In this document: piece after piece, positions 6,699-25,271 of the stretch | How the letters are laid out: each line of letters starts with the position of its first letter | Numbering within the stretch: position 1 is the stretch's first letter | Assembly: GCA_021795795.1 (NCBI GenBank) | Contig: JAJYPA010000025.1 | Span: 1 to 37,398, forward strand | DNA from: Pseudomonadota bacterium | GTDB lineage: Bacteria; Pseudomonadota; Gammaproteobacteria; Halothiobacillales; Halothiobacillaceae | Direction: 5' to 3' | Length of the DNA: 37,398 nt | Translations under genes and position numbers: made by a program | The notes under the pieces: generated by a model | Databases searched by the model: none | Told to the model about the DNA's origin: nothing | Seen by the model: only the letters and a program-made list of their open reading frames with translations

Positions 6699-6763
6699 TG
6701 TTTTGTATATAGTACTTCCCGTCTAGGTTGTTCTCAGGAACCAGTACGCTTATAAGGAGTTCA

Positions 6764-7591
6764 ATGCAAATGTCTGATGCAGGCCAATTCCGTGTTGGAA
6801 TCTATCAATCTTCAACAGAAGACGCGAATGTCCCCGCCCGCCTGAATAAATTAAAAGACGGGGTGCTATCTGCAGTTGGTCGTGGTGTTGATTTACTGGT
6901 TTTCCCGGAGATGTATTTGACGGGTTACGCCATCGGATTGGAGGCAGTGAAAACCTTGGCCGAATTTGCCAATGGGGCATCGATGCAAGTCATCGCCGCT
7001 TGTGCGCGAGTAGCTAAAATGACTATTGTCTATGGGTACCCTGAGCGTGACCAGGCAGGGTTTGTCTATAATTCCATTAATGTTATTTCATCTAGCGGTG
7101 AACTACTGCAGACTTATCGCAAAGTTATGTTGTTTGGCAATGTAGATCGGACACAATTCAGTCCGGGGCAAGGCTATTGTTTGCCGATCATGCTACATGG
7201 ATTCCGTATAGGTTTTGGAATTTGTTACGACGTGGAGTTTCCAGAGGTGGCAAGAGCATTGGCATTGGCCGGCGCAGAAATGTTGGTGGTGCCGACAGCT
7301 AATATGCGTCCGTTTGAATCTGTCTCAGATCGTTTGATTCCAGCCAGAGCGCAAGAAAATGGGATATTCGTCGTCTATGCCAATTATTTTGGGCATGATG
7401 AGATGTTTGATTATTTTGGGAAAAGTGTCATTTGTGATCCATTTGGAAATGATGTTATACGAGCAGAGACCGGAGAGCATTTATTGGTCGCAGATATTCA
7501 TCATGATACTGTGCGTTCTGCAAGAGTATTGAATGACTATCTCAATGATTACCGACATGCGGCGATACATATCCGGGTAATGGAAGCGTGA
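6764..7591 (+). CDS. Nitrilase-superfamily amidase, DavA-like (5-aminovaleramidase or 4-guanidinobutyramidase)
   Basis: The protein has 275 residues and is soluble. The start at 6764 follows AAGGAG (6754-6759); ATG 6770 is an equally good alternative, while the upstream ATG 6728 has no ribosome site. The catalytic Glu-Lys-Cys triad of carbon-nitrogen hydrolases is complete: LLVFPEMYLTG (Glu, about residue 45), TYRKVMLFG (Lys, about 113) and FGICYDVEFPE (Cys, about 147). The phrases IVYGYPERD, LVVPTANMRPF and RAQENGIFVVYANY resemble the DavA delta-aminovaleramidase group as I know it. Such enzymes hydrolyse the amide made by lysine or arginine 2-monooxygenase to the free omega-amino or guanidino acid. 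A matching monooxygenase lies at 9953-11593. Family certain, exact substrate inferred. Confidence 0.8.
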   Translation: MQMSDAGQFRVGIYQSSTEDANVPARLNKLKDGVLSAVGRGVDLLVFPEMYLTGYAIGLEAVKTLAEFANGASMQVIAACARVAKMTIVYGYPERDQAGFVYNSINVISSSGELLQTYRKVMLFGNVDRTQFSPGQGYCLPIMLHGFRIGFGICYDVEFPEVARALALAGAEMLVVPTANMRPFESVSDRLIPARAQENGIFVVYANYFGHDEMFDYFGKSVICDPFGNDVIRAETGEHLLVADIHHDTVRSARVLNDYLNDYRHAAIHIRVMEA

Positions 7592-8972: not shown

Positions 8973-9923
8973 CTATTTATGGGGGCTTGATGTAGCGAAA
9001 AGACAGAGCATTTCTCCGGCAATATGGGCGGCGGCAATGGCAGTAATTTCACTATGGTCATAAATGGGTGCCACCTCCACAACATCGGCACCGACCAGAT
9101 TTAAACCCGCCAAACCCCTCAGTATGCCCAACACCTGAGGATTACTAAGACCACCCACAACCGGGGTACCGGTTCCTGGTGCAGTAGCCGGATCCAAGCA
9201 ATCAATATCAAAAGTCAAATACACTGGACCATCTCCGAGTATCTCGCGAATTCGTCCGACCAGTTCTTTCTCCGAAAGCTCATGCACCATAGGCGCCGGC
9301 AGTTGGTGAATACCCAAGGTGTCATCATTCCAGGTACGAATCCCCACCTGTACTGAATGATCTACGTCAATTAGGCCCTCCTTCACGGCTTTGTAAAACA
9401 TCGTCCCATGACTGATACTTTCGCGACTTTTGTCGGGCCAGGTATCGGTGTGCGCATCAAAATGCAGCAAACGCATCGGCTGCCCATTGAATTCTGCGAA
9501 CGCAGCTAACAGAGGATAACTGACATAGTGATCTCCTCCGAAGCTGAGTAATCTGACGCCCCGCTGCAAGATCGACAGCGCATGTGTACAGATTTGATTA
9601 TAAATGGCCAATGGGTGATGTACATCTAACTGCAAATCCCCCAAATCGACTCCCCTGATTCTCTCCAAAGGATTGAAACCCCATGGGAACATTTTGCGTC
9701 GCGCCAACTGTGCACTTGCCGCGCGGATTGCCCCCGGACCAAAGCGGGCACCTGGACGATAGGTCGTCGCCAAATCAAAGGGAATACCGGAAATGACGAC
9801 ATCTGCGGATTCCTCCTCCCCAAGATCCGAGGCGCACCGCATAAAAGTGGAAATACTGTTGTAGGTGTTGATTTCCGGCTTTTGCCAGATATCAGAAGCT
9901 GGTCCACTGCGTTCCTGTTCCAT
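8973..9923 (-). CDS. speB: Agmatinase-family ureohydrolase (agmatinase or guanidinobutyrase)
   Basis: The protein has 316 residues and starts at ATG 9923 with AGGAGA five bases upstream. The binuclear Mn site of the arginase/agmatinase fold is complete: FGGDHYVS, HFDAHTDTW and DIDCLDPATAPGTGTP. The sequence resembles E. coli SpeB closely in places (HGTMFYKAVKEGLID, SVQVGIRT, VYLTFDIDCLDP). It hydrolyses a guanidino compound to urea plus the amine: agmatine to putrescine, or 4-guanidinobutyrate to GABA. It is the second gene of an operon, 29 bases after the FAD monooxygenase. That partner makes the amide precursor of 4-guanidinobutyrate if it acts on arginine, so guanidinobutyrase is a serious alternative to agmatinase. 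Both products feed the polyamine genes downstream in the window. Confidence 0.85.
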   Translation of the reverse strand: MEQERSGPASDIWQKPEINTYNSISTFMRCASDLGEEESADVVISGIPFDLATTYRPGARFGPGAIRAASAQLARRKMFPWGFNPLERIRGVDLGDLQLDVHHPLAIYNQICTHALSILQRGVRLLSFGGDHYVSYPLLAAFAEFNGQPMRLLHFDAHTDTWPDKSRESISHGTMFYKAVKEGLIDVDHSVQVGIRTWNDDTLGIHQLPAPMVHELSEKELVGRIREILGDGPVYLTFDIDCLDPATAPGTGTPVVGGLSNPQVLGILRGLAGLNLVGADVVEVAPIYDHSEITAIAAAHIAGEMLCLFATSSPHK

Positions 9924-9952: not shown

Positions 9953-11593
9953 CTATAATTCAACTGGTCCCATCTCCAAAATACAATCTCCAGGTCCTGG
10001 GTTCTGTGGATGTGACTGACCACCTAGATGATGCAGGACGCCCCAGACAGCATTGAGGGCCGTTTGAATAGCCCCTTCTGCCCATCCGGGGGTAAACGAA
10101 ATATCGTCACCCGCGAGAAAAATGCCTCTTTGCGCAATTGGAAATGTTCGTTGATCAAAGTGAGTGTACATCATTCTGTTGTATCGATAGTGGCCGGGTA
10201 AAGCACCCTTGAAGGCACCCAGAAAATTTTCCTCCAATTCCCACGAGATTGTGACGGGGTTGCTTTTGATATGACTTGCTATATCCACATCAGGATAAAT
10301 CTTCGACAGGGATGACAAAGACAGTCTGGTACGTTTTTCGATGGAAAGAGGTAACATTTTTAGTGCGTCCCCCATCCAAGAGTAGGTCAGGCAAATAACA
10401 GCCGGTCGCTCCAAGCCATACTCAAAGAGGTAGGTACCACGTGTCAAACGGTCTGTGAGTGTCATACTCAGTGACTGAGTATCCACATTGTATTGTGGAT
10501 GTTTCCAGAAGGGTCGATCCACCAGCACGAAGGTTTTTGATGACTGCATATAGCGGGTTCGATCCAAAGCCATCCACATACGGTCAGAAAAAAGGGCCTC
10601 TTCTACTTCAATAGACGTAGTCAACAGCCAGCTTTGACATGTCAACACAACCGCCGCATAAGATTCGGCCATACCCCATTCGTTTTCAAGTACCAGAGAC
10701 GCATCATCCGTATGGCGATAGATCCGTTTTACTTTACCATGTGGAGCCCCGCCGTTCACTTCTTTCAAAGAGCTATCATGATGACAGCGACGACTCCAAA
10801 GGCCACACGGTACCTGTTGAGCACCACCCGCCACCATGTATTGATGATCATCAAACCCGCAAAAAACTACCCGAAAAATTTCCAGCATCGTATTCTGAAA
10901 ATCGGAGTCCCATCCCCCCGTACCAAAACCAATTTGTCCGAAGGTTTCCTTAAATTCGTAGGGAAGGTTCACAAATGCCTGCGCACTACATAGAAAATCA
11001 TAAAATGTCCGGTCATCCCAGCATCGAACCAGATCATTCCAGATTTCCTTGATTTTGTGGATATCTTTTTCGCGCATGGCCTGCTGCAGCTGATCCATTT
11101 GCCCGACTTCATTGAGAGCGTTGCGCCAAGCACTCATGATATGCGTAAAACTGCCTGGGAAATCTTCCAACCGACTTCCACGGTAGCGTTTTCCCAGAAG
11201 TTCGACAGTGGTATACCCCGCTGCCTCGGAAATGGGATTTGGAAAAGCTTGCCTGCGCAAGTTCAGCAAGTCGGCATAATGCCAGAATAGTTTACCCGAA
11301 GCAGGGAATCTCATCCCGCCAAGTTCCGCCACGATATCGCTATCGACTCCTTCAAAGCGATGCGAACGCAGGCGCCCACCTATCCAGCCCGCTTCATAAA
11401 CTACCGGCCGCAACCCAAGGCGCATTAATTCATAAGCTGCGACCATACCCGCTACACCTGCTCCAACAATGGCTACAGACATTCCCTTTCGATCCTCCGG
11501 CAAGCTCCCCAATCCTTGTTGGGCCGTTAACCAAGGCAAATAATCAAAGGGAAAATCTGGACATAATGCCTGAACATCTATGGATTCTGACAT
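9953..11593 (-). CDS. FAD-dependent L-amino acid 2-monooxygenase, DavB-like (lysine or arginine)
   Basis: The product has 546 residues, which fits lysine 2-monooxygenase (about 560). ATG 11593 follows AAGGA. A dinucleotide-binding motif for FAD is at about residues 41-70 (VAIVGAGVAGMVAAYELMRL then VVYEAG), followed by GGRLRSHRFEG and AELGGMRFP, the flavin amine-oxidase contact region. Further blocks match the DavB group as I recall it: FGQIGFGTGGWDSDFQNTML, LDRTRYMQSSKTFVLVDRPF, LGAFKGALPGHYRYNRMMY and a C-terminal FAD segment GIFLAGDDISFTPGWAEGAI. These enzymes decarboxylate and oxygenate lysine or arginine to the amide. The ureohydrolase 29 bases downstream argues for arginine; the DavA-like amidase at 6764 fits either. 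It has no signal peptide, so it is cytoplasmic. Confidence 0.85.
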   Translation of the reverse strand: MSESIDVQALCPDFPFDYLPWLTAQQGLGSLPEDRKGMSVAIVGAGVAGMVAAYELMRLGLRPVVYEAGWIGGRLRSHRFEGVDSDIVAELGGMRFPASGKLFWHYADLLNLRRQAFPNPISEAAGYTTVELLGKRYRGSRLEDFPGSFTHIMSAWRNALNEVGQMDQLQQAMREKDIHKIKEIWNDLVRCWDDRTFYDFLCSAQAFVNLPYEFKETFGQIGFGTGGWDSDFQNTMLEIFRVVFCGFDDHQYMVAGGAQQVPCGLWSRRCHHDSSLKEVNGGAPHGKVKRIYRHTDDASLVLENEWGMAESYAAVVLTCQSWLLTTSIEVEEALFSDRMWMALDRTRYMQSSKTFVLVDRPFWKHPQYNVDTQSLSMTLTDRLTRGTYLFEYGLERPAVICLTYSWMGDALKMLPLSIEKRTRLSLSSLSKIYPDVDIASHIKSNPVTISWELEENFLGAFKGALPGHYRYNRMMYTHFDQRTFPIAQRGIFLAGDDISFTPGWAEGAIQTALNAVWGVLHHLGGQSHPQNPGPGDCILEMGPVEL

Positions 11594-11882: not shown

Positions 11883-12572
11883 CTATAATTTCATTTCCAG
11901 AATTTCCAGCAGTTCTTCAACATTCAAAACCTGACAATATATATTATTGATAATCTCTAGCTCACGATTATGCAACTCCTCAGTCCCAGCCGCACACGCG
12001 TCCTCAACAACCACAGTATCAAAACTTTCATCGGCGAGACTACGCACAGTAGACGACACACACTGATCTGTAAAAATTCCACACACGACGACGTGGTGTA
12101 TGCCCATGTTATGTAAAATAAGGCGAAGATTAGTTCCGGTAAGCGCCGAGTCCGTGGTCTTTGTCACGACCACTTCATTTTCCCGCGGTTTTATGTTCTC
12201 TATAATCTGAGATGCCTTCTGGTTATGTGGAAGAAGGATGTTATTAAAGCCCGGTCTCTTTTGACTAAGAGAACGATCTTTGCCATCAGCCGTGAGACAA
12301 GCAATGCGCGCGAAGAACACGGGCATTCCCCGCTCCCGAAAGTACCCTGTCAGCCTTACGACATTCGGTACTACTACGTTTTTCATCCGTGACCGGAAAA
12401 ACGCCCATTCACTCGCTTCGCCAAGATCGTCAGAACATGAAAAATAAATATTTTGCATATCGATGACTAATAGACCTGTTCTTTCCAACTTCAGCGTAAG
12501 ATCAGGTATCTCCGCGTGGTTATAATAAAAAGAACGATGCCTCTGCTTCCAGTGGTTGCCAGGCTTATCCAT
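11883..12572 (-). CDS. Isochorismatase-family cysteine hydrolase
   Basis: The protein has 229 residues. All three catalytic residues of the family are visible: Asp in GLLVIDMQNIYF (about residue 39), Lys in VVTKTTDSALTGT (about 138) and Cys in GIFTDQCVSSTVRSLAD (about 171). Members hydrolyse C-N bonds in amides, carbamoyl or hydantoin-like compounds, or isochorismate; sequence alone does not choose. The ATG overlaps the stop of the SDR gene by one base (TAATG), so the two are translationally coupled and share a promoter. This gene pair may finish a route begun by the divergent kinase/PLP-enzyme genes, for example release of ammonia from an amide, but this is inference. Confidence 0.8.
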   Translation of the reverse strand: MDKPGNHWKQRHRSFYYNHAEIPDLTLKLERTGLLVIDMQNIYFSCSDDLGEASEWAFFRSRMKNVVVPNVVRLTGYFRERGMPVFFARIACLTADGKDRSLSQKRPGFNNILLPHNQKASQIIENIKPRENEVVVTKTTDSALTGTNLRLILHNMGIHHVVVCGIFTDQCVSSTVRSLADESFDTVVVEDACAAGTEELHNRELEIINNIYCQVLNVEELLEILEMKL

Positions 12573-13342
12573 TATCCCCCCAAGGCCTGCGCACTCTCCG
12601 GCAGAGTTTGGCCACCGTCAACGATGATAGTCTGTCCAGTAATGTAGCCGGATGCTTCACCAGCCAAAAATAGTGCGGCATTTGCTATATCTTTCACATC
12701 ACCAAGACGTCCCAGAGGTATACTCGCCGCCATCGCGGCAAGATATTCTTTACCCATCCCCTCCAACCCCTCGGTAAGAATGTTACCTGGTAGTACCGCA
12801 TTTACGGTAATCCCATCCGCCGCACATTCTAACGCTGCGGTCCGCATAAATCCTAGCTGAGCCGCCTTAGAAGCGCCGTAATAAGACCATCCGGGAAATC
12901 CCGTAATCGGGCCCGTAATAGAAGACGTGATCACGATACGACCGGCCGTGCTCTGCCTGAGAAGCGGTAACGCAGCCTGAACCGTATAAATGGTACCCTT
13001 GACGTTGGTAGCGAGAATCTCATCCAGGGCCATGTTGGTGCTATCCCGGATGTAGGCCGATGGAAATATACCAGCGTTGGCACACACCACATCCAAACCC
13101 ATAAAACGCTGCTGAATGGCGTCAATGACCTTGTTTATAGAATTCCTCTCCGCAACATTACCTTTTAGGAAAATTAACTTCCCAGGCCCGGCACCCTGCA
13201 ACTCGTTAATAGTGTTTTGCCCATCATCGACGCTGCGTCCGCAAATAGCCACATCATATCCACTCTTAAAAAAACCAGCCGCCAGACCTTTGCCTATACC
13301 CTTGCTGCCACCTGTAATTAAAACCGAGCGTCGTCGAGCCAT
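12572..13342 (-). CDS. Short-chain dehydrogenase/reductase
   Basis: The protein has 256 residues, the classical SDR length. The NAD(P)-binding motif TGGSKGIG is at about residues 10-17, NAG at about 89-91, and the catalytic Ser/Tyr/Lys set in VITSSITG and WSYYGASKAAQLG. A C-terminal IIVDGGQTLP closes the FabG-like fold. Arg in CGRSVDD after the second beta strand suggests NADP. A strong site GGGAGGG precedes ATG 13342. It is first in a two-gene operon with the cysteine hydrolase and divergent from the kinase operon, with a shared 410-base control region. The substrate is unknown; a hydroxy acid, aldehyde or alcohol intermediate is likely. Confidence 0.82.
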   Translation of the reverse strand: MARRRSVLITGGSKGIGKGLAAGFFKSGYDVAICGRSVDDGQNTINELQGAGPGKLIFLKGNVAERNSINKVIDAIQQRFMGLDVVCANAGIFPSAYIRDSTNMALDEILATNVKGTIYTVQAALPLLRQSTAGRIVITSSITGPITGFPGWSYYGASKAAQLGFMRTAALECAADGITVNAVLPGNILTEGLEGMGKEYLAAMAASIPLGRLGDVKDIANAALFLAGEASGYITGQTIIVDGGQTLPESAQALGG

Positions 13343-13387
13343 AATTCCGCCACCCTCCCAAGGAGCTAGCTAGCACTTCACGATTAA

Positions 13388-13403
13388 AGCATTTATCATG
13401 CCA
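13388..13403 (-). promoter_or_regulatory. Sigma-54 -24/-12 promoter candidate for the SDR-hydrolase operon
   Basis: On the minus strand TGGCATGATAAATGCT has GG and GC 10 bases apart and agrees with TGGCAC-N5-TTGC at eight of ten core positions. The transcript would begin near 13378, 36 bases before the ATG. It faces away from the kinase-operon promoter. Confidence 0.42.
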
Positions 13404-13518
13404 AGTCTAGTTAGTGTGAAAACTGCGTCTTAGATCATTTCTTGAGTCAAACTATTCGTTAATTTCTCAACATCTTCAATCATTCACCAAGATAGTAATT
13501 GCGAGCGCGCTCATTTTT

Positions 13519-13535
13519 TGCACTATCATAGGGCG
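13519..13535. promoter_or_regulatory. Weaker NtrC-type site
   Basis: TGCACTATCATAGGGCG has a perfect left half and a right half with four of six matches to RGTGCA. Its centre lies 30 bases from the better site at 13549-13565, about three helical turns, as is usual for paired NtrC enhancer sites. Confidence 0.35.
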
Positions 13536-13548
13536 GAAATGTGAAATT

Positions 13549-13565
13549 TGCACTAAAATCGTGCA
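13549..13565. promoter_or_regulatory. NtrC-type enhancer palindrome
   Basis: TGCACTAAAATCGTGCA fits the NtrC consensus TGCAC-Y-N5-R-GTGCA except for one inner base. Its centre is about 119 bases upstream of the predicted start of the kinase operon and about 179 bases upstream of the SDR operon start. Confidence 0.5.
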
Positions 13566-13649
13566 TACGACTGCCCTGTTGAAAAAAGCTCAGGGGCCGC
13601 CTCCGCAAAGATCGTTGAATATAAACGTCCTTCTCATTTATCATTAACC

Positions 13650-13665
13650 TGGCTCAGATATTGCT
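13650..13665 (+). promoter_or_regulatory. Sigma-54 -24/-12 promoter candidate for the kinase operon
   Basis: TGGCTCAGATATTGCT has GG-N10-GC spacing and nine of ten core matches to TGGCAC-N5-TTGC, with the W after it. The transcript would start near 13676, 77 bases before the ATG at 13753. Confidence 0.5.
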
Positions 13666-13752
13666 TGATACCGTGGGTTCATTTATTTCTTCTAATCTTA
13701 GATAACTAACTTATGCGTCTGCATGATCCCATATCTATCCTGGACGGTATTT

Positions 13753-14730
13753 ATGATGGAAAACTTAATAAGCTTGATCACCAGACACGTAAAACGTGAA
13801 TATCCACAAATATCGCGAAATATTTTAAATATATCCTTTATAACGAGCTCTGAAAATTATACGTATAGACTAAATTGTGGAGAGAATAAATATTCTTTGA
13901 GGCTACAAATATCTGGATATCATTCTCGGAACGATATCCAGGCGGAATTACGTTTTGTGGAGATGCTCAACGATCGAAGTATCAAAATAGCCCGTCCGGT
14001 ATCCACATTCTCCGGGGAGAACGTGAGCACCTTTTCCGCACCAGCCGGTGACATTCTCGTTTCGATATTTGAGTGGATAGATGGAGAACATCCTACACCC
14101 GAACAATATTCACAAATCTATGGTCAGCTTGGATTAGTTATGGGCACCATGCATAATATATCCGAATCCATTACGCCACTTTTTTTTGGTCAACGACCAT
14201 TTTGGAATTTCGATAGAATAATTGGGGACAACGCCGTTTGGGGTAGTTGGTATCAGCCCCATTACGTTAGCCAAAAACAAGAAAAGCTTGTTAAGCACGC
14301 TATCCATGAAATACGGAAAAGGCTAGACCAGCACCATGGCAACAAAATATATGGATTAATTCACGCTGATATGCGCCCTACCAACGTTTTGGTCAAAGAT
14401 AATGAGTTAGTAATCATTGATTTTGATGATTGTTGCCACTCTTGGTATATGTTTGACATCGCAGCCTCTGTGAGCTTCCTGGAACACGATCAGAACGTAA
14501 CTTATTGGCTAAATAAGCTGCTTCGTAACTACTTAACAGTTCGCGATCTCCACCAAGGTGATTTAGATGTTCTACCATATTTTATTGCCATGCGGAGAAT
14601 ACAGCTCATGGCGTGGTACTTTTCTCATATAAACAGTGAGTTTGCAAAAACACTGGGGCCGGAGTGGTTCGCTTGTTCGTATGATGTTATCGAGCGAGTA
14701 CTGCAGGGTGAGTTCCGTTTCTCACGTTAA
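13753..14730 (+). CDS. APH/ChoK-fold small-molecule kinase (aminoglycoside phosphotransferase family)
   Basis: The protein has 325 residues from ATG 13753 (next ATG 13756); ATG 13723 has no ribosome site. It has the phosphotransferase fold: an N-lobe with YRLNCGENKYSLRLQ supplying the ATP-contacting strand, ILVSIFEWIDGEHPT as hinge, then the catalytic loop LIHADMRPTNVLV (HxD...N, with Ala instead of Gly) and ELVIIDFDDC, the metal-binding Asp. Relatives include hydroxylysine kinase, homoserine kinase II and SrkA; antibiotic resistance is unlikely. It is directly followed by a class III PLP enzyme of the phospholyase type, a pairing known from hydroxylysine and ethanolamine breakdown. The likely role is phosphorylation of an amino alcohol or hydroxy amino acid. 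The gene is notably AT-rich. Confidence 0.78.
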   Translation: MMENLISLITRHVKREYPQISRNILNISFITSSENYTYRLNCGENKYSLRLQISGYHSRNDIQAELRFVEMLNDRSIKIARPVSTFSGENVSTFSAPAGDILVSIFEWIDGEHPTPEQYSQIYGQLGLVMGTMHNISESITPLFFGQRPFWNFDRIIGDNAVWGSWYQPHYVSQKQEKLVKHAIHEIRKRLDQHHGNKIYGLIHADMRPTNVLVKDNELVIIDFDDCCHSWYMFDIAASVSFLEHDQNVTYWLNKLLRNYLTVRDLHQGDLDVLPYFIAMRRIQLMAWYFSHINSEFAKTLGPEWFACSYDVIERVLQGEFRFSR

Positions 14731-14752
14731 TTACTAACTTGCGAGGCCTATG

Positions 14753-16048
14753 ATGCTTAAACTAAACAGCTTCACTGCCACCGATAATAAAACCGTCCCA
14801 ACTCACATAATACGTAGAAGATCCGCAATTAGCCATCACTATGAGTTATTTTATCGTGAACCGTTAAATCCGGTACACGCAGAAGGCGCGTGGATAACAG
14901 ATGCGAACGGCAGGAAATATCTCGATGCTTATAATAATGTTGTATCGGTAGGGCATGGCAATCAACGAGTTATCGACGCCATGGCAACTCAAGCGAAAAC
15001 AATTTGTACCCATACCCGCTATATCAATGATGAACTGTGTAGATTATCGGAACGATTGGCAGCAAAACATGCGGGATATAATGACTGGAGATCTATATTT
15101 ACATGTAGTGGGAGCGAGGCTAATGACCTCGCGATGCGTATAGCCATGCAGTTCACAGGAGGCAACGGATTTATCGTCACCGATCACGCCTATCATGGCC
15201 TAACAGCGCTGACTCAAGCCATCACGACCTCCATGGCCGGTTACCTTGAATTATCCAGACGACTGGGATTAGAAGTCGTAGTAATCCCCTCCCCAGTTGG
15301 CAAGGGCGAAGGAGATTCCTTTATCGAAAACCTGCGTGGAGCGATATACGAGATGCAAAGTAAAGGTATGCGACTCGCGGGCGGTATATTTGATTCGTTT
15401 TTCACGAGCGATGGTTTGGGGTTAACGCCCAAAGGGTTCCTAGAGGAAGCGGTCACATTACTTCATGACAATGACGCCTTGTATATCGCTGACGAGGTAC
15501 AACCAGGGTTCGGCAGATCCGGTTCATATTTCTGGGGTTTCCAAACCCACGGTGCGGACCCGGACATCATTACTATGGGTAAGCCAATGGGCAATGGGTA
15601 CCCTATGGCAGCCATCATGTTTAAGGCCTTGTTAGATGACTACATAATGGATAGCTATTTTAACACCTTCGGCGGCAATAATGTGGCGGTCGCTGTAGGT
15701 CACGCAGTATTGGATGAAATTGAAGAGCGCAATCTTCTTGAAAATGCGCGCATCCAGGGGGATAAACTTTTTTTGGCATTGGACCAACTGAAAAAGTCCT
15801 ATGTAAATATATCCTCAATACGGGGTTCAGGAATGTCGATAGCGGTCGATGTTGTGACAGATGACGGCGCACCGAATGCTGAAGGGGCCCTTCGTATAGT
15901 CGAAGCAATGAAACAGCGTGGTGTAATTATTAGCACCAGCGGTCTCATGGGCAACACTCTCAAGATACGCCCGCTACTTATATACACTAACGAGGAGACA
16001 ACTTTTTTTATTGAACAAATTCAATCAGCTGTTAGAACTGTATTTTAG
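14753..16048 (+). CDS. Class III PLP enzyme, AGXT2/phospholyase-like aminotransferase
   Basis: The protein has 431 residues. ATG 14753 is preferred to 14750 because GAGG sits six bases before it. PLP-binding features are complete: SGSEANDLAMRIA (phosphate site), AYHGLT, ADEVQPGFGRSG (Asp for the ring nitrogen) and ITMGKPMGNGYP with the Schiff-base Lys. The N-terminal blocks YLDAYNNVVSVGHGN and THTRYINDELCRL are typical of the subgroup with ethanolamine-phosphate and 5-phosphohydroxylysine phospholyases and AGXT2. Preceded by a kinase (22-base gap) and followed by a permease, it may remove phosphate and ammonia from the kinase product. A plain transaminase is the alternative. Confidence 0.8.
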   Translation: MLKLNSFTATDNKTVPTHIIRRRSAISHHYELFYREPLNPVHAEGAWITDANGRKYLDAYNNVVSVGHGNQRVIDAMATQAKTICTHTRYINDELCRLSERLAAKHAGYNDWRSIFTCSGSEANDLAMRIAMQFTGGNGFIVTDHAYHGLTALTQAITTSMAGYLELSRRLGLEVVVIPSPVGKGEGDSFIENLRGAIYEMQSKGMRLAGGIFDSFFTSDGLGLTPKGFLEEAVTLLHDNDALYIADEVQPGFGRSGSYFWGFQTHGADPDIITMGKPMGNGYPMAAIMFKALLDDYIMDSYFNTFGGNNVAVAVGHAVLDEIEERNLLENARIQGDKLFLALDQLKKSYVNISSIRGSGMSIAVDVVTDDGAPNAEGALRIVEAMKQRGVIISTSGLMGNTLKIRPLLIYTNEETTFFIEQIQSAVRTVF

Positions 16049-16074
16049 TCGTTATAGATGTGGAGGTCAAGGAT

Positions 16075-17493
16075 ATGTCAACAGAGATTTTGGAAGGTAG
16101 TAATTTAAAGGAATCCAATCTTGGTTTTCCTGAAGCGATTGGTCAGTCACTGGCTAATATTTCCCCAACATTTACACCGGCGTTAAATATTGTTGCCGTC
16201 GTATCGCTCGCAGGCTTGGGAAGTTGGCTCGTATACGGTCTGGCGGCGCTAGCGCTTTTATTTGTTGGTTTAAATATAGCGACGCTTGCTGGGCGATTCT
16301 CCGCAGCCGGTTCGTTTTTTGTATTCATATCCCGCTCATTGGGGCCTATGTTAGGCGGTGTTGCTGGCTTTGCATTGGTTGCCGCATATATCTTTTGCGC
16401 AATGGCAGTTCTCGCCGGCTCGGAGATATTTGTGAAGGTGAGTCTTTTATCAGTAGGGGTTTCCATTGAGAATTGGATCGTTTATATTATCGTTGGATTG
16501 ATCGCAGGTTACCTGTGTTACAAAGATATCAAGTTTTCATCTCGGTTGAGTGTGGGAATAGAATTTTTATCCGTTGCAATAATATCTGTGATGTTGATTC
16601 TCTCCTGCATCAGGCATCCCACCATGCTATTCGATGCATCACAGCTCATGATGCATGGCGCGACATCAAAAGGTATGATGGAAGCCAGCGTGCTTGCTAT
16701 TTTTTCATTTGTTGGTTTTGAGAGCGCTGTAACTTTAGGTAAAGAAACGAAATCTCCGCTCACAACCATTCCGCGCGCAGTTATTACTTCGATGTTAGTT
16801 GCGGGTACATTTTTCATGTTTGTAGCGTACACAATGGTTATTGCTTATGCGAATAATACAACCGTATTAGGTAACGATACTGCTCCACTTAAGACATTGG
16901 TGAATGGTCTTGGCGGTGGCACTGATGCCGTTTTCCTGATTTATCTGCTTGCATCCCTAAGTGCCTTTGCTTGCGTGATAGCCAGTATAAATGCGGGAGC
17001 ACGATTGCTCTTTTCCATGGGACGTTATCAGTTTATTCATCGGTCCATGGGGTTGGTTCATGCTAAACACCAGACCCCCCATACGGCAATTCTCATTTCG
17101 ACTGCACTCACTATTATCGTGCCCCTGCTGATGTTATCTCAGGGTGCGATGAATACCTATGATATTGCTGGCACTGTTTCCACGTTTGGCTTCATTACTG
17201 CCTACGTACTGATCAGTATCGCAGCACCTGTCTACCTTGCGAAGCAAAAGCAACTCAAGGTACGTAACATTATTTATGCAGCAATTGGTATAGTGGCGAT
17301 GCTTGGTGCGTTCTTTGGATCAGTGTATCCGGTGCCGTCATATCCGTACAATGTGTTACCCTACATTTACTTGTCATATCTTATAGTTGGCTTGCTGTGG
17401 CTTTCCAGGATCAAGTATTCTGCACCACAGATCCTTCAAAAAATGAGTGAGGATCTGGAGTCTCAATCTTCCTATGTATTTAGGAGAAAATAG
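16075..17493 (+). CDS. APC-family amino acid/amine permease
   Basis: The protein has 472 residues and 12 or so membrane helices. ATG 16075 is chosen because GGAGG (16062-16066) lies eight bases upstream; a GTG at 16060 is in frame. The N-terminal segment NLGFPEAIGQSLANISPTF and the helix-6 region ASVLAIFSFVGFESAVTLG followed by KETKSPLTTIPRAV are typical of APC exchangers and symporters (YfnA/SteT-like and related groups). It is third in an operon with the kinase and PLP enzyme, 26 bases after the latter, so it probably imports their substrate. It ends in a basic cytoplasmic tail and is followed by a terminator hairpin. Confidence 0.82.
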   Translation: MSTEILEGSNLKESNLGFPEAIGQSLANISPTFTPALNIVAVVSLAGLGSWLVYGLAALALLFVGLNIATLAGRFSAAGSFFVFISRSLGPMLGGVAGFALVAAYIFCAMAVLAGSEIFVKVSLLSVGVSIENWIVYIIVGLIAGYLCYKDIKFSSRLSVGIEFLSVAIISVMLILSCIRHPTMLFDASQLMMHGATSKGMMEASVLAIFSFVGFESAVTLGKETKSPLTTIPRAVITSMLVAGTFFMFVAYTMVIAYANNTTVLGNDTAPLKTLVNGLGGGTDAVFLIYLLASLSAFACVIASINAGARLLFSMGRYQFIHRSMGLVHAKHQTPHTAILISTALTIIVPLLMLSQGAMNTYDIAGTVSTFGFITAYVLISIAAPVYLAKQKQLKVRNIIYAAIGIVAMLGAFFGSVYPVPSYPYNVLPYIYLSYLIVGLLWLSRIKYSAPQILQKMSEDLESQSSYVFRRK

Positions 17494-17560: not shown

Positions 17561-17591
17561 TTTAATAGTTCAATGGGTATGTGGATACGTG

Positions 17592-19310
17592 ATGGAAAAT
17601 GATATTAATCATTTCAGTGATGAGTTTGAGGTGATTCTAGAGGGCCCGGTACCGGCGTATAGGGTATCGCTTTGGTCTCACATCGGAGTGAAATCTGCTA
17701 TCAATGAGGACTATGTTGCTTTTTTATCGTCCGAAAAGGCGCAGCGAGCTACTCGTGGTAGCATGTTGATTGTGGCGGATGGTGTTGGGAGTGCCAAGGG
17801 GGGGCGAGTTGCGTCTGAAGTTTTTGTCAGACAGTTCTTGTCTGGATATTATGAAGCACCTAATTCTCTTACGGTGGAGGCCGCCCTTGGAAGAAGTTTG
17901 GCTTCCGTAAATGAATGGCTTAACTATTACGGTAGAAATAGCTCTGATCTAGAGAATATGGCGGCAGTATTTTGTGCCGTAATAATACGTGGATGGGAAT
18001 GCTATGTCGTATCCGCCGGTGATGTAAGATGCTATCTGGTTCGAGGTAACACTATCGAGATGATTACAACTGATCATCTCATTAATGTTGGAACAGGGGG
18101 ATTTATTGCAAGGGCTGCCGGACTGGATGTTACGTTGAATGCGGAGATCATAAAGCTAAATATAGATGATGATGACAAGCTGTTCATCATGTCCGATGGC
18201 TGTTATCGGTACGTGACTCCTGAAACCATAAAACTTCTCACAGCAGAGCTAGCGGAAGGGCGGAATATAGCAGAAAAGGTCGGGCTCCTGGCACAACATA
18301 ATGGATCTAAAGATGATATTTCTGCAGCGCTCATCGATTTTCAGAATTTACCGAAAAAAACACTAACGTACTTTGAAAGTGCTTCGCGTACTCTTCCAAT
18401 GGGTCGGGTACCAACGGTTGGCATAGTGGTTGATGGTTATTTCATTGATCGAAAGCTATATGAGGGTCATTTTAGCGTGCTTTTTCTGGCTCGGGATGGC
18501 GGTAGCGACAGCGTCTCTTATGTCGTACTTAAATTTCCGAAAGTGAGAGCGCTTGAAGATGAAAACTTGCGCCGGTCTTTCGCAAAAGAGGACTGGGTTC
18601 TTTCTGCGGTATCCAGCCCTTGGCTGTCGAAGTCGGCTAACGATGATAGGCGCAGAAGTCAGCTTTATCTCGTGACACCATTTTATCATGGTAAGACACT
18701 TAAAGAATCTTTGAGCAGCTCTGATATGTCTTTTAGCGCAGGTCTCGATATTGCGCAGAAAATGGCAAAGGGGTTGTACGAATTACACCGATTAGGGATT
18801 ATTCACCGGGACATAAAACCGGATAATGTTATTCTGCTGGAAGATGGAGGATTGAAAATAATTGATTATGGATTTGCTTATGTGGCGGGATTATTGGATC
18901 CCGCGCCTGACGAGCCGCCCGGAACCCCTTTATATATGGCGCCGGAGTTGGTTAATGGTGTTCCCGGCGACAGCCGCTCAGATGTATACGCATTTGGAAT
19001 AACCTTGTATATGATGTTTTCCCGAGGGAAAACGCCGACTGGTATTCATGGCTACAGGAGGTTGCGTACGATCAATCCGAACTATCCAGTGTGGATAGAT
19101 CGCATTATTGAAAAAATGGTCAGAGCCGATGCTGCAGAGAGGTATTCTGATACTTTGGAGGTTTTGTATGACTTGGATAAGTATGCAGCGCTTGCGGAGT
19201 GGCCGGTAGATTCGGAAACCGGCGTGTGCATCAGAGTCAGGGAGGTAGTATTGTTGCGTTGGCTTGTAGTAGCGCTTGTTTTTGTTTTACTCTTTATGCA
19301 ATCAAAATAA
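17592..19310 (+). CDS. PP2C phosphatase-Ser/Thr protein kinase fusion with C-terminal membrane anchor
   Basis: The protein has 572 residues from ATG 17592 (GTG 17589 is in frame); no clear ribosome site is visible. Residues about 25-250 form a PP2C domain: SAINEDYVAF, MLIVADGVGSAKGG, SAGDVRCYLV, LFIMSDGCYRYV and GSKDDISAALID supply the metal-binding acids. Residues about 280-540 form a Hanks-type kinase: YVVLKFPK (ATP Lys), IIHRDIKPDNVIL (catalytic Asp), IIDYGFAY (DFG as DYG), LYMAPELVNG and SDVYAFGITLYMMF. The glycine-rich loop is poor. A hydrophobic helix, LLRWLVVALVFVLLFMQ, ends the protein, so both domains face the cytoplasm. Fusions of this kind sit beside nitrogen transporters in some proteobacteria. 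Here it follows a permease and may regulate it; that is inference. Confidence 0.85.
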   Translation: MENDINHFSDEFEVILEGPVPAYRVSLWSHIGVKSAINEDYVAFLSSEKAQRATRGSMLIVADGVGSAKGGRVASEVFVRQFLSGYYEAPNSLTVEAALGRSLASVNEWLNYYGRNSSDLENMAAVFCAVIIRGWECYVVSAGDVRCYLVRGNTIEMITTDHLINVGTGGFIARAAGLDVTLNAEIIKLNIDDDDKLFIMSDGCYRYVTPETIKLLTAELAEGRNIAEKVGLLAQHNGSKDDISAALIDFQNLPKKTLTYFESASRTLPMGRVPTVGIVVDGYFIDRKLYEGHFSVLFLARDGGSDSVSYVVLKFPKVRALEDENLRRSFAKEDWVLSAVSSPWLSKSANDDRRRSQLYLVTPFYHGKTLKESLSSSDMSFSAGLDIAQKMAKGLYELHRLGIIHRDIKPDNVILLEDGGLKIIDYGFAYVAGLLDPAPDEPPGTPLYMAPELVNGVPGDSRSDVYAFGITLYMMFSRGKTPTGIHGYRRLRTINPNYPVWIDRIIEKMVRADAAERYSDTLEVLYDLDKYAALAEWPVDSETGVCIRVREVVLLRWLVVALVFVLLFMQSK

Positions 19311-19337: not shown

Positions 19338-19895
19338 TTAAAAGGTCGGCGGGCTATTAGCACTAATGATCTCACAAATTTCATCACTATTATTCACAAA
19401 TCGATGCGGTAACTGACTGTTAAAATAATAGCCATCACCGACTGATAATATTTCTACCTTGTCGCCGACGGTGAGTTGTATGGTCCCGCAAACAACCACT
19501 CCCCCCTCCTCGCCATCATGACGAAGCATGGACTCCCCGGTATCAGCGCCTGGTTCGTAGTATTCATGTAGTATCTGCATCATCCGGCTCTTGGTCGGGA
19601 GGCCCAGTAGCTTCATAGTGATTTTACGCCCCACCGCTATGTCGGGTAGCTCATGGTCGCGAAAGAACACTTCCCCGGATGGAACCAGGTCTAGAGTAAA
19701 AAATTCCGAGATAGACATGGGGATTCCATCCAGGATTTTCTTCAGGGAGCTAATGGATGGACTTACCCGGTTTTGTTCAATCAGCGAAATGGCGCCATTG
19801 GTTACTCCGGCACGCCGGGATAATGCCCGTTGGGTAAGGCCATAAATCTTTCTGACGAGCTGCAGGCGCTGACCAATGTTTTCGTTATTGCTCAT
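19338..19895 (-). CDS. puuR: XRE-cupin transcriptional regulator, PuuR-like
   Basis: The protein has 185 residues, the same length as E. coli PuuR. Residues about 7-60 form a helix-turn-helix (LQLVRKIYGLTQRALSRRAG then GAISLIEQNRVSPSISSLKK), and residues about 105-180 a cupin ligand-binding barrel (YEPGADTGESMLRHDGEEGG, LSVGDGYYFNSQLPHRF). PuuR represses putrescine catabolism and is released by putrescine. It is the last gene of the transaminase-ald-aldehyde dehydrogenase run (31 bases after the latter), so it is probably co-transcribed and autoregulated. It converges on the phosphatase-kinase gene with 27 bases between stops. There is no obvious Shine-Dalgarno site, suggesting low translation. 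Confidence 0.82.
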   Translation of the reverse strand: MSNNENIGQRLQLVRKIYGLTQRALSRRAGVTNGAISLIEQNRVSPSISSLKKILDGIPMSISEFFTLDLVPSGEVFFRDHELPDIAVGRKITMKLLGLPTKSRMMQILHEYYEPGADTGESMLRHDGEEGGVVVCGTIQLTVGDKVEILSVGDGYYFNSQLPHRFVNNSDEICEIISANSPPTF

Positions 19896-19926
19896 GGGAA
19901 TGTCCGCTGGGTAAGGGGGCTAGATA

Positions 19927-21477
19927 TTATAGGGAACTCTGCGGATCTTGCAAAAAATTTTTGTCAGCTTGTGTCAATGGGTCGATATGTATCCATGTAG
20001 TTTTTAGGTCGGTGTACTTGTCAATCGCGTGTAAGGATTTATCCCGCCCGAATCCTGATTGTTTGAATCCGCCGAAAGGTACGGTAGCGTCACCTTCTTC
20101 GTAAGCGTTTATCCACACGGTTCCTGCCCGCAGACGCTTGGCCATGCGATGTGCGCGGCTGATGTTGCCGGTCCACACTGCAGCGCCCAGACCATAGGTG
20201 CTATCGTTGGCGATACACAGTGCTTCGTCTTCGCTGTCAAATCCAAGAACCGCGAGTACCGGTCCGAAGATTTCCTCCTGGGCGATGGTCATGTGACTTT
20301 GCACGTTATCGAAAATGGTCGGCGCGAGATAATAACCGCCGCTTTCCAGGCTTACGCGCTCTCCCCCCAAACGGAGACGCGCACCTTGTTTGCGACCAGC
20401 GTCAATATAACCCATAACCCGGGTCAGTTGTTTGTTGCTGATGATGGCACCAATCCTGGTAGTCGGATCAAGGGGATCCCCGGGTTTTAAAAAGGCTCCT
20501 GCTGCAATAACCTTTTCAACAAAGCTTTCGCGAATACTGTTTTCGACCAGCAAGCGTGATCCGGCACTGCAAACTTCGCCCTGATTAAAAAATATCGCCA
20601 TGGCCGCCGCTTGTGCGGCCGCATCCAGATCATCACAATCGGCGAAAATGATATTCGGACTTTTTCCCCCGCATTCCAGCCAGACCCTTTTCATGTTGGA
20701 TTGTCCAGAGTATTGCAAAAACAGTTTTCCAACCTCCGTTGATCCGGTAAAAGCCAGACAATCCACATCAGGATGCAAGCCCAGCGCTTTACCTGCGGTG
20801 GGGCCGTAACCCGGCAAAACATTAAGTATCCCCGCGGGAATACCGGCATCCAATGCCAATTCAGCCAGTCGCAGGGCGGTCAGCGGAGATTGTTCTGCCG
20901 GTTTCAATATTACGCTGTTTCCGGCGGCCAAGGCAGGTGCCACTTTCCACGCTGCCATATCGAGAGGGAAATTCCAGGGCACCACCGCGGCTACGACGCC
21001 CAGCGGCTCACGGGTAATCATACCGATGGAGCCTGCTTCCGTAGGCGCGATTTCGTCGTAAACCTTATCGGTCGCTTCACCATGCCAGGCGAAAGTGCGG
21101 ATGATTCCGGCCATATCAATATGGTAACTGTCGTGAATGGGCTTTCCCACGTCCAGCGTTTCCATGAGAGCAAGCTCTTCACGATGCCTTTCGATAATCT
21201 CTGCGAGTCGAATCAGTCGACGCCCGCGTTCGCGTGGAGGGAGTTGTGACCAGCGCCCATCCTCAAAAGCTTCGCGGGCATTGGCGACAGCGATGTTCAC
21301 GTCGGCAGAATCTGCTTCGGCGACCTCGGTCAACAACGCACCCGTAGCCGGATTCACACTGGGAAAGCGCTTCCGGGATACGGCATCCTGCCATTTTCCG
21401 TCAATGAATAGTTGGGTCGGGAATTTCATCTGCGCAGCCTTTGCGCTCCAATAGGCTTTGTCTGGAAAGGTTTCCAT
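19927..21477 (-). CDS. puuC: Aldehyde dehydrogenase, PuuC-like
   Basis: The enzyme has 516 residues. ATG 21477 (METFPDK) lies seven bases after GGAG, whereas ATG 21483, which overlaps the ald stop by four bases, is too close to it. NAD-linked family motifs are complete: VVPWNFPLDMAAWK, KPAEQSPLTALRLAE, FTGSTEVGKLF, the general-base Glu in VWLECGGKSPN, the nucleophile Cys in FNQGEVCSAGSRL, and EIFGPVLAVLGF. It oxidises gamma-glutamyl-gamma-aminobutyraldehyde and similar amino aldehydes (4-aminobutyraldehyde, 3-aminopropanal) to the acids. In context it serves both the gamma-glutamyl route and the direct transaminase route. Malonate-semialdehyde or succinate-semialdehyde oxidation is an alternative. 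Confidence 0.85.
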   Translation of the reverse strand: METFPDKAYWSAKAAQMKFPTQLFIDGKWQDAVSRKRFPSVNPATGALLTEVAEADSADVNIAVANAREAFEDGRWSQLPPRERGRRLIRLAEIIERHREELALMETLDVGKPIHDSYHIDMAGIIRTFAWHGEATDKVYDEIAPTEAGSIGMITREPLGVVAAVVPWNFPLDMAAWKVAPALAAGNSVILKPAEQSPLTALRLAELALDAGIPAGILNVLPGYGPTAGKALGLHPDVDCLAFTGSTEVGKLFLQYSGQSNMKRVWLECGGKSPNIIFADCDDLDAAAQAAAMAIFFNQGEVCSAGSRLLVENSIRESFVEKVIAAGAFLKPGDPLDPTTRIGAIISNKQLTRVMGYIDAGRKQGARLRLGGERVSLESGGYYLAPTIFDNVQSHMTIAQEEIFGPVLAVLGFDSEDEALCIANDSTYGLGAAVWTGNISRAHRMAKRLRAGTVWINAYEEGDATVPFGGFKQSGFGRDKSLHAIDKYTDLKTTWIHIDPLTQADKNFLQDPQSSL

Positions 21478-21479
21478 CG

Positions 21480-22601
21480 TCATTCTCCTTGCAACAAGAT
21501 TTCTGCGAGCATCAACTCAACGCCCAGCGCTTCGGCGACAGCGGGGCAGGTGATGTGACCATTGGCGACATTGAGACCATTGCGGAAATTGGTATCGGCT
21601 TTCAGCGCTGCTTTCCAGCCCAGATTGGCCAGGCGCAGGGTATAAGGTAGTGTTGCGTTGGTCAGTGCGAAAGTCGAGGTGCGCGCCACTGCGCCGGGCA
21701 TGTTGGCAACGCCATAATGCACAATATTGTCGATGATATAAGTGGGTTCGGCATGAGTGGTGGCATGACTGGTTTCGAAGCAGCCCCCCTGATCAATGGC
21801 TACGTCTACCAGCACGCTGCCCGCTTTCATGTGCTGGAGCATATCTTTGGTTACCAACTTGGGTGCACTGGCGCCCGGCACCAGAACGGCACCGATGATC
21901 AGATCTGCAGCAAACACACTCTCCTCAATAGACTCTGTCGTGGCGTATAGGGTTTTCAGTTGTGGGCCATATAGCCCGTCGATTTCGGCCAGACGGGGGA
22001 GGGATTTGTCGAGAATGGTGACGTCGGCCCCCAGTCCCATCGCGAGGCGTGCAGCGTTGAGCCCCACCACCCCGCCTCCGAGCACCGCTACTTTTGCGGC
22101 AGCCACCCCCGGCACGCCAGCCAGAAGAATACCAGCACCACCTGCGGCCTTCTCCAAAGCATGGGCACCCACCTGGACCGCCATTCTTCCCGCGACCTCG
22201 CTCATGGGAGCGAGCAAGGGCAGGCGGCCCATTTTATCAGTAACGGTTTCATAGGCGATGGCAATAGCACCGGAGCGCATGAGCAATTGAGCCTGCTTCG
22301 GGTCGGGTGCAAGATGAAGGTAGGTAAACAGAATTTGTCCTGGGCGCAGTTGTTCGCATTCCTGCGGCTGGGGTTCCTTTACCTTGACGATCATATCCGC
22401 CTGTGCAAACACCGCCTCGGCGGTTGTCAGAATTTCTGCTCCGGCGCGGCGGTAGTCGTCATCGCTTTTGCCAATGCCGATACCGGCGTTCTGTTCTATG
22501 AGTACCTGATGGCCGTGAGCGCAGACCTCGCGGACTCCGGCAGGAGTCATGCCGACCCGATATTCATTGTTTTTGATTTCTTTGGGGATACCAATTTTCA
22601 T
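21480..22601 (-). CDS. ald: Alanine dehydrogenase
   Basis: The enzyme has 373 residues, starting [20 protein letters not shown] at ATG 22601, ten bases past the transaminase stop; the longer frame to 22676 lies inside that gene and has no homology. Active-site residues are seen in [10 protein letters not shown] (Lys) and FTYLHLAPD (His). The NAD-binding Rossmann motif [17 protein letters not shown] is at about residues 170-186, and [19 protein letters not shown] and [11 protein letters not shown] are family blocks. It deaminates L-alanine to pyruvate and ammonia with NADH. Beside two pyruvate-dependent transaminases it can regenerate the acceptor and release nitrogen. The overlap with puuC shows translational coupling. 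Confidence 0.9.
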
Positions 22602-22611
22602 GATGTGCGCC

Positions 22612-23922
22612 TCAGGAGATAGTGCGCAGTACTTCGCGCAGGGTTTGGAAAAGTCGGTCGAGATGGGACATTTCAATAATCAGTGGCGGAGAGAGGGCGA
22701 TGGTATCCCCGGTGGCCCGGACCAGGAGACCAAGCTCCAGGGATTTGAGCAGAACTTCGTAACCACGTGCCCCGGGTTCTCCGACCTTCGGTTCCAGTTC
22801 GATGGCGGCCATCAGGCCGAGGTTGCGAATATCTGCCACATGGGGCAAATCGCGCAGACCGTGTACCATCTCAGCAAAGGAGGGTGCTATCAGGCTGCCG
22901 CGATGGAGCAAATCTTCTTTTTCGTAGATATCCAGGGCGGCCAGACCGGCGGCACAAGCCAAGGGGTGTCCCGAGTAGGTGTAACCGTGGAAAAATTCGA
23001 TTTGCTCTGCCGGGCCGCTCATAAATGCATCGTGCACGGTATCGCTGCTGAACACCGCGCCCATAGGTACCGCCGCATTGGTCAGACCTTTTGCCGTGGT
23101 CATGATATCCGGGGTGACACAGAAGTAATCGGAGGCAAAGGGTGTGCCGAGACGACCGAATCCCGTAATCACTTCATCAAAAATCAGTAAAATGCCGTGT
23201 TCCGTGCAGATATCGCGCAAGCGTTGCAGATAACCTGCGGGTGGAACAATAACGCCTGCAGAACCGGCAACGGGTTCAACGATAACGGCGGCAATACACT
23301 CTGCCCCATGTTTATGAATGAGATCCTCCAAGGCATCCGCCTTTTCTACGCCATAAAGAGGTAATCCCTGGCTGAACCGGTTGCGCTCCTGATCCAGTGT
23401 GTGGGGGAGATGGTCCACCGCCAGGAGGTTACCGAAAACGCGCCGGTTATTGGGGAGTCCTCCCACGGAGATGCCCCCGAAGCCAACCCCGTGATAAGCC
23501 TTTTCACGGCCGATTAATAACGTGCGTTGTGGTTCACCGCGCATAAAATGATAGGCCAGTGCCATTTTCAATGCGGTGTCGGCAGATTCGGATCCAGAGT
23601 TGGTGAAAAAAACGTGATCCAAACCCTTTGGCGTATATTTTATTAAGCGATCGGCAAACAGGAAAGGCAGGCTGTGGCCCATCTGAAAAGTGGGAGCGAA
23701 GTCCATTTCGCGCGCCTGTGCTGTAATGGCATCACTGATTTCGCTGCGACAGTGTCCGGCGTTGACACACCACAGACCTGCGGTGGAATCCAGTATCTCC
23801 TTGCCTTCGGCATCCCAATAAAACATGCCCTCAGCGCGTTCAAGCAGGCGGGGGGCTGACTTGAACTGACGGTTCGCCGTGAAGGGCATCCAGAAAGCAT
23901 CGAGATCGGAATGTGGGCTCAT
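22612..23922 (-). CDS. Beta-alanine (omega-amino acid):pyruvate aminotransferase
   Basis: This class III PLP enzyme has 436 residues, starting at ATG 23922 with CAGGAG upstream. Its opening, LDAFWMPFTANRQFKSAPRL, with GLWCVNAGHCR and FAPTFQMGH, is highly typical of the omega-amino acid:pyruvate transaminases. The PLP Lys lies in TTAKGLTNAAVPMG and the Asp in LIFDEVITGFGRLG; HVFFTNSGSESADTALKMAL and AYHGVGFGGISVGG are further family blocks. It moves the amino group of beta-alanine, and often GABA or diamines, to pyruvate, giving alanine and malonate or succinate semialdehyde. Beta-alanine arises from spermidine or 1,3-diaminopropane. It opens the transaminase-ald-puuC-puuR run behind its own promoter. 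Confidence 0.85.
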   Translation of the reverse strand: MSPHSDLDAFWMPFTANRQFKSAPRLLERAEGMFYWDAEGKEILDSTAGLWCVNAGHCRSEISDAITAQAREMDFAPTFQMGHSLPFLFADRLIKYTPKGLDHVFFTNSGSESADTALKMALAYHFMRGEPQRTLLIGREKAYHGVGFGGISVGGLPNNRRVFGNLLAVDHLPHTLDQERNRFSQGLPLYGVEKADALEDLIHKHGAECIAAVIVEPVAGSAGVIVPPAGYLQRLRDICTEHGILLIFDEVITGFGRLGTPFASDYFCVTPDIMTTAKGLTNAAVPMGAVFSSDTVHDAFMSGPAEQIEFFHGYTYSGHPLACAAGLAALDIYEKEDLLHRGSLIAPSFAEMVHGLRDLPHVADIRNLGLMAAIELEPKVGEPGARGYEVLLKSLELGLLVRATGDTIALSPPLIIEMSHLDRLFQTLREVLRTIS

Positions 23923-23942
23923 AAATAACTCCTGCGTGCAAA

Positions 23943-25264: not shown

Positions 25265-25271
25265 TTTCTCT

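Follow-up and report, generated by a model that had tools for sequence, protein, structure and literature searches.

A probable shell-free gene module for aminoacetone and (S)-1-amino-2-propanol catabolism in an Acidithiobacillus ferrooxidans-like bacterium

Introduction

Which compound is broken down by the products of five adjoining genes on contig JAJYPA010000025.1, and is the pathway that they suggest a new one? The stretch of DNA analysed here, called the window (37,398 nucleotides), carries at 11883-17493 the genes of a cysteine hydrolase (HYD), a short-chain dehydrogenase/reductase (SDR), an APH-fold kinase (KIN), a class III pyridoxal phosphate enzyme (PLP) and an APC permease (PERM). 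The first-pass annotation had read them as a candidate pathway of no described kind, in which a hydroxylated amine, foremost hydroxylysine or ethanolamine, would be phosphorylated and then split into phosphate, ammonia and an aldehyde whose redox state the SDR would change, the hydrolase perhaps opening an amide or lactam. From family membership, predicted fold, motifs, gene order and co-occurrence, the set is understood here as a real and coherent gene group of a known kind, apparently shell-free and with an extra hydrolase, and it probably serves an Acidithiobacillus ferrooxidans-like bacterium in breaking down aminoacetone and (S)-1-amino-2-propanol without a shell. The chemistry first proposed is thus largely retained, while the undescribed status of the pathway, the role of the SDR and the lead substrate are not supported.

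Results

All five open reading frames (ORFs) are complete and lie where they had first been annotated, and Pfam agrees with the families assigned to them: Isochorismatase for HYD (PF00857, 122 bits; 229 residues, 11883-12572, minus strand), adh_short for SDR (PF00106 and PF13561; 12572-13342, minus strand), APH for KIN (PF01636, 80 bits; 13723-14730, plus strand), Aminotran_3 for PLP (PF00202, 230 bits; 14750-16048, plus strand) and AA_permease for PERM, an amine/amino acid permease (PF00324, 94 bits, and PF13520; 16060-17493, plus strand). The stop codon of SDR overlaps the start of HYD by one base (TAATG), as had been noted, and the pair is divergent from KIN and PLP; on the plus strand, 19 bases separate KIN from PLP and 11 separate PLP from PERM. 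Promoter and terminator scans of the region were no better than shuffled sequence (12 sites against 13.5, and 6 against 5.8), so that the transcription units are drawn from spacing alone. A plasmid origin was considered and dropped: a 15.1 kb stretch had no match among 72,556 plasmid records at megablast sensitivity. Homologue searches list the best 120 of 7980 matches, of 135 for the kinase and of 7307 for the hydrolase, and among the matches listed the closest named proteins for KIN and HYD come from Acidithiobacillus ferrooxidans (KIN with P0121, 100% identity over 97%; HYD with P0241, 99% identity). Because P0121 has 325 residues, KIN may start at 13753 rather than 13723.

The substrate of the module is indicated by SDR, whose closest relatives are of the (S)-1-amino-2-propanol / aminoacetone dehydrogenase type. 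Compared with solved structures it scores 294 bits to 6ci8/6ci9, the mycobacterial RMM aminopropanol dehydrogenase, and 282 and 274 bits to two further mycobacterial SDRs, after which the scores drop to at most 148. Foldseek with the predicted model (mean predicted local distance difference test score, pLDDT, 87.9) returns chains of 6ci8/6ci9 at ranks 1-9 (55-56% identity) and the two mycobacterial SDRs next, the remaining SDRs among the best 50 matches being 28-37% identical. The two entries are titled 'RMM microcompartment-associated aminopropanol dehydrogenase NADP + aminoacetone holo-structure' and 'Structure of the microcompartment-associated aminoacetone dehydrogenase'. The window SDR is furthermore 51-59% identical to 18 kinase-linked SDRs from other bacteria and 92% identical to that of the Acidithiobacillus locus L095, and its motifs TGGSKGIG and YGASK are intact; to the motifs of SDR, as to those of KIN, PLP and HYD below, we presume the usual catalytic meaning. 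Since these relatives use the pair aminoacetone / 1-amino-2-propanol, which is likely the pair used here, the SDR step is placed upstream of the kinase and not, as first thought, on the aldehyde product. SDR likewise favours 1-amino-2-propanol over hydroxylysine or ethanolamine as lead substrate; hydroxylysine, considered in that role, was dropped as supported by no linked gene.

KIN is of the 1-amino-2-propanol kinase type by sequence and by fold. A phmmer search of solved structures gave 148 bits to 6ef6 and at most 62 to three others, and the KIN model (pLDDT 91.3) has 6ef6 at Foldseek rank 1 (template modelling score 0.82-0.85, 28% identity), with amicoumacin and homoserine kinases ranking lower; the entry is titled 'Structure of the microcompartment-associated aminopropanol kinase'. 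The kinase motifs IHADMRPTN (213-221) and IDFDD (232-236) are intact. The paper on the aminopropanol kinase reportedly already proposed a phospholyase route and described the kinase as widely distributed together with a candidate phospholyase.

The low identity of KIN to 6ef6, and the genes for agmatinase-like, flavin amine oxidase and Puu-type proteins that flank the module on either side, could point to another hydroxylated amine of the surrounding arginine and polyamine metabolism (2-hydroxyputrescine, 4-amino-3-hydroxybutyrate or 5-hydroxylysine), degraded by the same kinase-phospholyase chemistry. We regard this as very unlikely, given how closely SDR matches the aminopropanol enzyme and given that in two 16 kb loci (L128, L129) the module stands without relatives of the window Puu and Pot genes, save a generic class III enzyme and an aldehyde dehydrogenase.

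PLP is a class III enzyme of the phospholyase type. Among solved enzymes, the phospholyase 5g4i (297 bits) and the ethanolamine-phosphate phospho-lyase 6tor (244 bits) both lead the next one (150 bits) by at least 94 bits, and the motif GKPMGNGYP (277-285) is intact. A tree of 65 rows, built from one class III enzyme per locus with rows above 470 residues reduced to their last 470, puts the phospholyase-type rows, window PLP included, on one side (45 rows) and 18 other kinase-linked class III enzymes, together with two other class III enzymes of the window, on the opposite side, the root being a midpoint root and the window's two transaminase rows being long branches. The motif GKPMGNGxP follows this division: it is found in 44 of the 45 phospholyase-side rows, in none of the 18 other kinase-linked rows, one of which (L060) is closest, among solved enzymes, to putrescine aminotransferase, and in neither of the two window transaminases. 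PLP does not, therefore, group with the two ordinary transaminases of the window, and together with the lead of 6ef6 for KIN the proposed sequence of kinase and phospholyase is borne out.

The neighbourhood also recurs in other genomes; two of the outcomes named beforehand as refuting the first reading, a PLP that clusters with transaminases and a neighbourhood that is not conserved, thus did not arise. A kinase alignment (window KIN and 24 of the 120 listed homologues) was used to scan genome contigs, and the best 80 of at least 580 confirmed loci were kept (L001-L080); L095, L096 and L125, which carry relatives of the module, were added outside the 80. An SDR of at least 230 bits is present in 29 of the 80 loci. 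Within 5 kb of the kinase, a phospholyase-type enzyme occurs in 32 loci, 12 of them with SDR, and another class III enzyme in 17, 15 of them with SDR; both families together occur in none. Shell-type loci typically carry the second family. As either one or the other family accompanies the same kinase family, the two may catalyse the same reaction, and the second may thus be a phospholyase too. A search for shell genes covered 33 genomes of the 80 loci and found the shell protein PF00936 in 15, in Acidithiobacillus sulfuriphilus (G001) as a fragment at a contig end only; at the one locus checked for position (L048), two BMC genes and a EutN/CcmL gene lie at most 2.4 kb upstream of kinase and SDR. 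Among the ORF translations of the window no shell gene (PF00936, PF03319) was recognised, the Pfam scan covering 20 window proteins, and the organism presumably has no shell for this module.

Co-occurrence was assessed across 369 genomes from the class to which G001 belongs (taken as Gammaproteobacteria), with E-value cut-offs of 1e-50 for HYD, 1e-65 for SDR, 1e-20 for the kinase and 1e-60 for the permease, at which 16, 8, 14 and 4 genomes, respectively, are carriers. KIN and SDR are found together in 7 genomes against 0.30 expected (hypergeometric P = 1.5e-10), HYD and kinase in 6 against 0.61 (P = 6e-6), and HYD and SDR in 5 against 0.35 (P = 4e-6); without G001, the centre of the set, P becomes 4e-9 for KIN-SDR, 6e-5 for HYD-SDR and 6e-5 for HYD-kinase, these values treating related genomes as independent and hence not being strict probabilities. 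The association of KIN with SDR bears on the question whether kinase and phospholyase act mainly on ethanolamine, releasing acetaldehyde, phosphate and ammonia, with SDR and HYD serving a neighbouring, different substrate. The ethanolamine enzyme 6tor is, after all, the second-best solved relative of PLP, in 20 of the 80 kinase loci a phospholyase-type enzyme lies within 5 kb while an SDR of 230 bits is lacking, and SDR and HYD are divergent from KIN and PLP in the window; against such a division stand the shared occurrence of KIN and SDR far above expectation and the closeness of SDR to a dehydrogenase of a secondary amino alcohol, and we hold it to be unlikely.

In the family of G001 (29 genomes), a kinase match is present in 7 genomes and a hydrolase match in 5 (E <= 0.001). 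Strong relatives of both are found in G001, G059 and G035 (kinase 34, 46 and 80% identity; hydrolase 64, 61 and 89%), and in all three the kinase and PLP genes lie together and SDR lies beside HYD. The SDR of G059 is read as two ORF fragments (L096:9891-10661), possibly from a frameshift or a sequencing error, and in G035 a copper amine oxidase gene lies between kinase and SDR. The module is patchy, 26 of the 29 genomes lacking it at this level. Transposase-like ORFs, read by eye and without family call, lie upstream of the module in the window and beside it in L095, and could be taken to mean that mobile elements assembled five unrelated neighbours; we find this barely credible, since KIN, SDR, HYD and PERM turn up in the same genomes much more often than expected and three genomes of the Acidithiobacillus family set retain the group.

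HYD is an isochorismatase-like enzyme with the triad of an amidohydrolase (D38, K138, C171), each residue conserved in 97% or more of the sequences when HYD is aligned with 120 homologues. Its best solved relative is YecD, at 62 bits only, and it stays below the curated family cut-offs of BiuH (70 bits against 370) and RutB (67 against 378). The presence of HYD in 5 of the 8 SDR genomes, far above the number expected, indicates that it may belong to the pathway. In G001 the two genes are neighbours. In G418 they are clearly apart, with 1.8 Mb between them on a single contig, as they are in G324, where each is well inside its own long contig. In G206 and G275 they lie on separate contigs that are short or broken, SDR at a contig start in both genomes and HYD near a contig end in G206, so that a link may exist in these two genomes. 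In the kinase loci, HYD of at least 200 bits occurs in 4 of 80 (L023, L047, L075, L078), all among the 29 that bear SDR. Around HYD in the 15 other genomes of the class that carry it, with ORFs read by eye and several contigs short, the neighbours are mostly unrelated genes; L125 alone has HYD, another class III enzyme and KIN together, in L117 HYD follows urea-transporter-like genes, and in L124 it lies beside a Pot-like transporter and an aminotransferase. With neighbours mostly unrelated, the function of HYD is not readable from synteny.

PERM is 24-29% identical to seven permeases of kinase loci outside Acidithiobacillus and 50% and 41% identical to those of G324 and G418; three of its four carrier genomes also have KIN, SDR and HYD. 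The gene of a PP2C phosphatase and Ser/Thr kinase fusion (assigned by Pfam; 17589-19310, plus strand) adjoins PERM in the window, in L095 and in L129 (L129:14040-15773), and in L097 a counterpart lies beside HYD, not PERM; it may be a regulator of the module or a controller of the transporter. Farther on lies a PuuC-like aldehyde dehydrogenase gene (19927-21483, minus strand; 662 bits to PRK09847 PuuC, below the model cut-off of 850), beside a PuuR-like gene. It belongs first to the polyamine cluster and is a possible aldehyde sink for the module. In L128 and L129 an aldehyde dehydrogenase gene lies inside the module, the order being GntR-UTRA regulator, SDR, class III enzyme of the second kind, kinase, aldehyde dehydrogenase and permease.

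The polyamine cluster (19338-36520, minus strand) comprises a PuuR-like regulator, the PuuC-like aldehyde dehydrogenase, an alanine dehydrogenase, two class III aminotransferases, a PuuB-like oxidase, two glutamine-synthetase-like proteins (PuuA), a PuuD-like amidotransferase, a permease and a Pot-like transporter, Puu and Pot names being in part those that we presume to apply. On the other side of the module, genes for a carbon-nitrogen hydrolase (6728-7591, plus strand), an agmatinase/ureohydrolase (8973-9923, minus strand), a flavin amine oxidase (9953-11593, minus strand) and an APC permease (3705-5357, plus strand) lie close together and are a candidate arginine 2-monooxygenase route by their sequence families. 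That route leads from arginine via guanidinobutyramide and guanidinobutyrate to γ-aminobutyrate; a literature search on such a route in Acidithiobacillus listed no paper that names the genus. Copper amine oxidase genes lie inside or beside the module in L095 (L095:11182-13143) and L128 (L128:14007-15947), in keeping with an amine substrate. Genes for BBP2-type (OmpL-like) outer-membrane porins lie near the module in L096 (L096:3429-4580) and L095 (L095:5192-6355), with a similar ORF, read by eye, in L097; none was noticed in the window module.

Discussion

The pathway suggested by the collective evidence is one in which the permease would bring the amine into the cell, SDR would interconvert aminoacetone and 1-amino-2-propanol with NADP(H), the kinase would form O-phospho-1-amino-2-propanol, and the phospholyase would eliminate phosphate and ammonia to give propionaldehyde. 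We infer not only the substrate in this scheme but also the direction of SDR, the flux and the aldehyde sink, for which a general aldehyde dehydrogenase, perhaps the nearby PuuC-like one, may oxidise the propionaldehyde. Nitrogen would be the likely gain. HYD, translated with SDR, probably feeds the pathway, and our guess is that it would hydrolyse an amide or carbamoyl derivative of either aminoacetone or the amino alcohol.

A number of observations weigh against this interpretation. An SDR of 230 bits is lacking in 51 of the 80 kinase loci, and in 31 of the 80 the 5 kb around the kinase hold no class III enzyme (2 of these with SDR). KIN scores higher with kinases of enterobacteria and Acinetobacter to which no SDR is linked (up to 200 bits) than with 6ef6, and these higher scores keep ethanolamine among the conceivable substrates. 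In Acidithiobacillus, kinase and SDR can lie apart, by 4.4 kb in L095 and 5.5 kb in L023, and the relatedness of the genomes tempers the P values as said above. An acylating aldehyde dehydrogenase was not seen in the module, the sole aldehyde dehydrogenase nearby being the PuuC-like one. For the gene prpB the three related genomes gave no match, hence use of propionyl-CoA by the methylcitrate route is unsupported there, which would be in keeping with nitrogen scavenging and not carbon use; tdh, with matches in all three but none above the curated cut-off, does not establish an internal source of aminoacetone. Lastly, 11 of the 16 HYD genomes have no SDR, and HYD lies there mostly amid seemingly unrelated genes. 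Either HYD is a broader amidohydrolase that this pathway uses among others, or it is only loosely tied to the pathway.

A more far-reaching proposal, which we put forward tentatively and think fairly unlikely to hold, combines two ideas: that HYD is an overlooked entry enzyme, releasing aminoacetone or the amino alcohol from a conjugate of amide or carbamoyl type, and that the AutA-type second class III family is a phospholyase, not a transaminase, for the same step as PLP. If HYD had that role, the natural substrate of some such loci would be a conjugate and not the free amine.

Our study matters because it locates a known yet little-characterised amine pathway in a bacterium related to an acidophile that oxidises iron and sulfur, with an ETNPPL-type phospholyase and apparently no microcompartment around it. 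It points to two questions, namely the target of the linked cysteine hydrolase and the possible phospholyase nature of the aminotransferase-like enzyme of shell-type loci. An aminopropanol pathway of Acidithiobacillus was not recognised among the papers that a literature search listed, as judged by titles and abstract openings.

Comparison with known systems

That the pathway is wholly undescribed was rejected, the kinase and dehydrogenase structures closest to KIN and SDR being named for the RMM/Aut locus, which is in print. In the parts of the published accounts consulted, this locus comprises a permease, an SDR, a phosphotransferase, an aminotransferase and an aldehyde dehydrogenase (PMC4207490, PMC6620236); the predicted Aut pathway is drawn in two schemes, in both of which the aminotransferase is a transaminase making lactaldehyde (PMC6620236), and RMM has been renamed for its apparent role in aminoacetone utilization (AAU; PMC8007038, where the papers on the kinase and the dehydrogenase are cited). 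The window module shares with the RMM/AAU locus of Rhodococcus and Mycobacterium the permease, the SDR, the APH-fold kinase and a class III PLP enzyme. It differs in that no shell genes came to notice in the 37 kb window (20 proteins scanned with Pfam), that the module has no GntR regulator or dedicated aldehyde dehydrogenase inside, and that its PLP is of the ETNPPL/5g4i type, whereas shell-type loci carry the putrescine-aminotransferase-like type. It also has an extra cysteine hydrolase; RMM1 has hydrolases of unnamed kind, and absence of such an enzyme from the published loci is not claimed.

A further likeness is offered by shell-free clusters such as L076 of Mycolicibacterium llatzerense, with a phospholyase-type PLP (323 bits), a permease (65 bits), KIN and an SDR 58% identical to that of the window, in a genome (G030) where no BMC domain was found; unlike the window, L076 has no hydrolase relative at E <= 1e-8, and its permease is 24% identical to PERM. 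An amino-alcohol O-phosphate phospho-lyase pathway, leading by kinase and phospholyase to an aldehyde, was reportedly described in Erwinia and Pseudomonas by Jones, Faulkner and Turner in the early 1970s, its genes then being unknown; the Pectobacterium loci L028 and L031 hold a kinase relative and a phospholyase-type gene within 1.5 kb. Hydroxylysine kinase with 5-phosphohydroxylysine phospholyase, and ETNPPL, of which 6tor is the structure entry, match KIN and PLP in both protein families and in their elimination chemistry. Compared with these systems, the linked SDR of the window is better suited to 1-amino-2-propanol.

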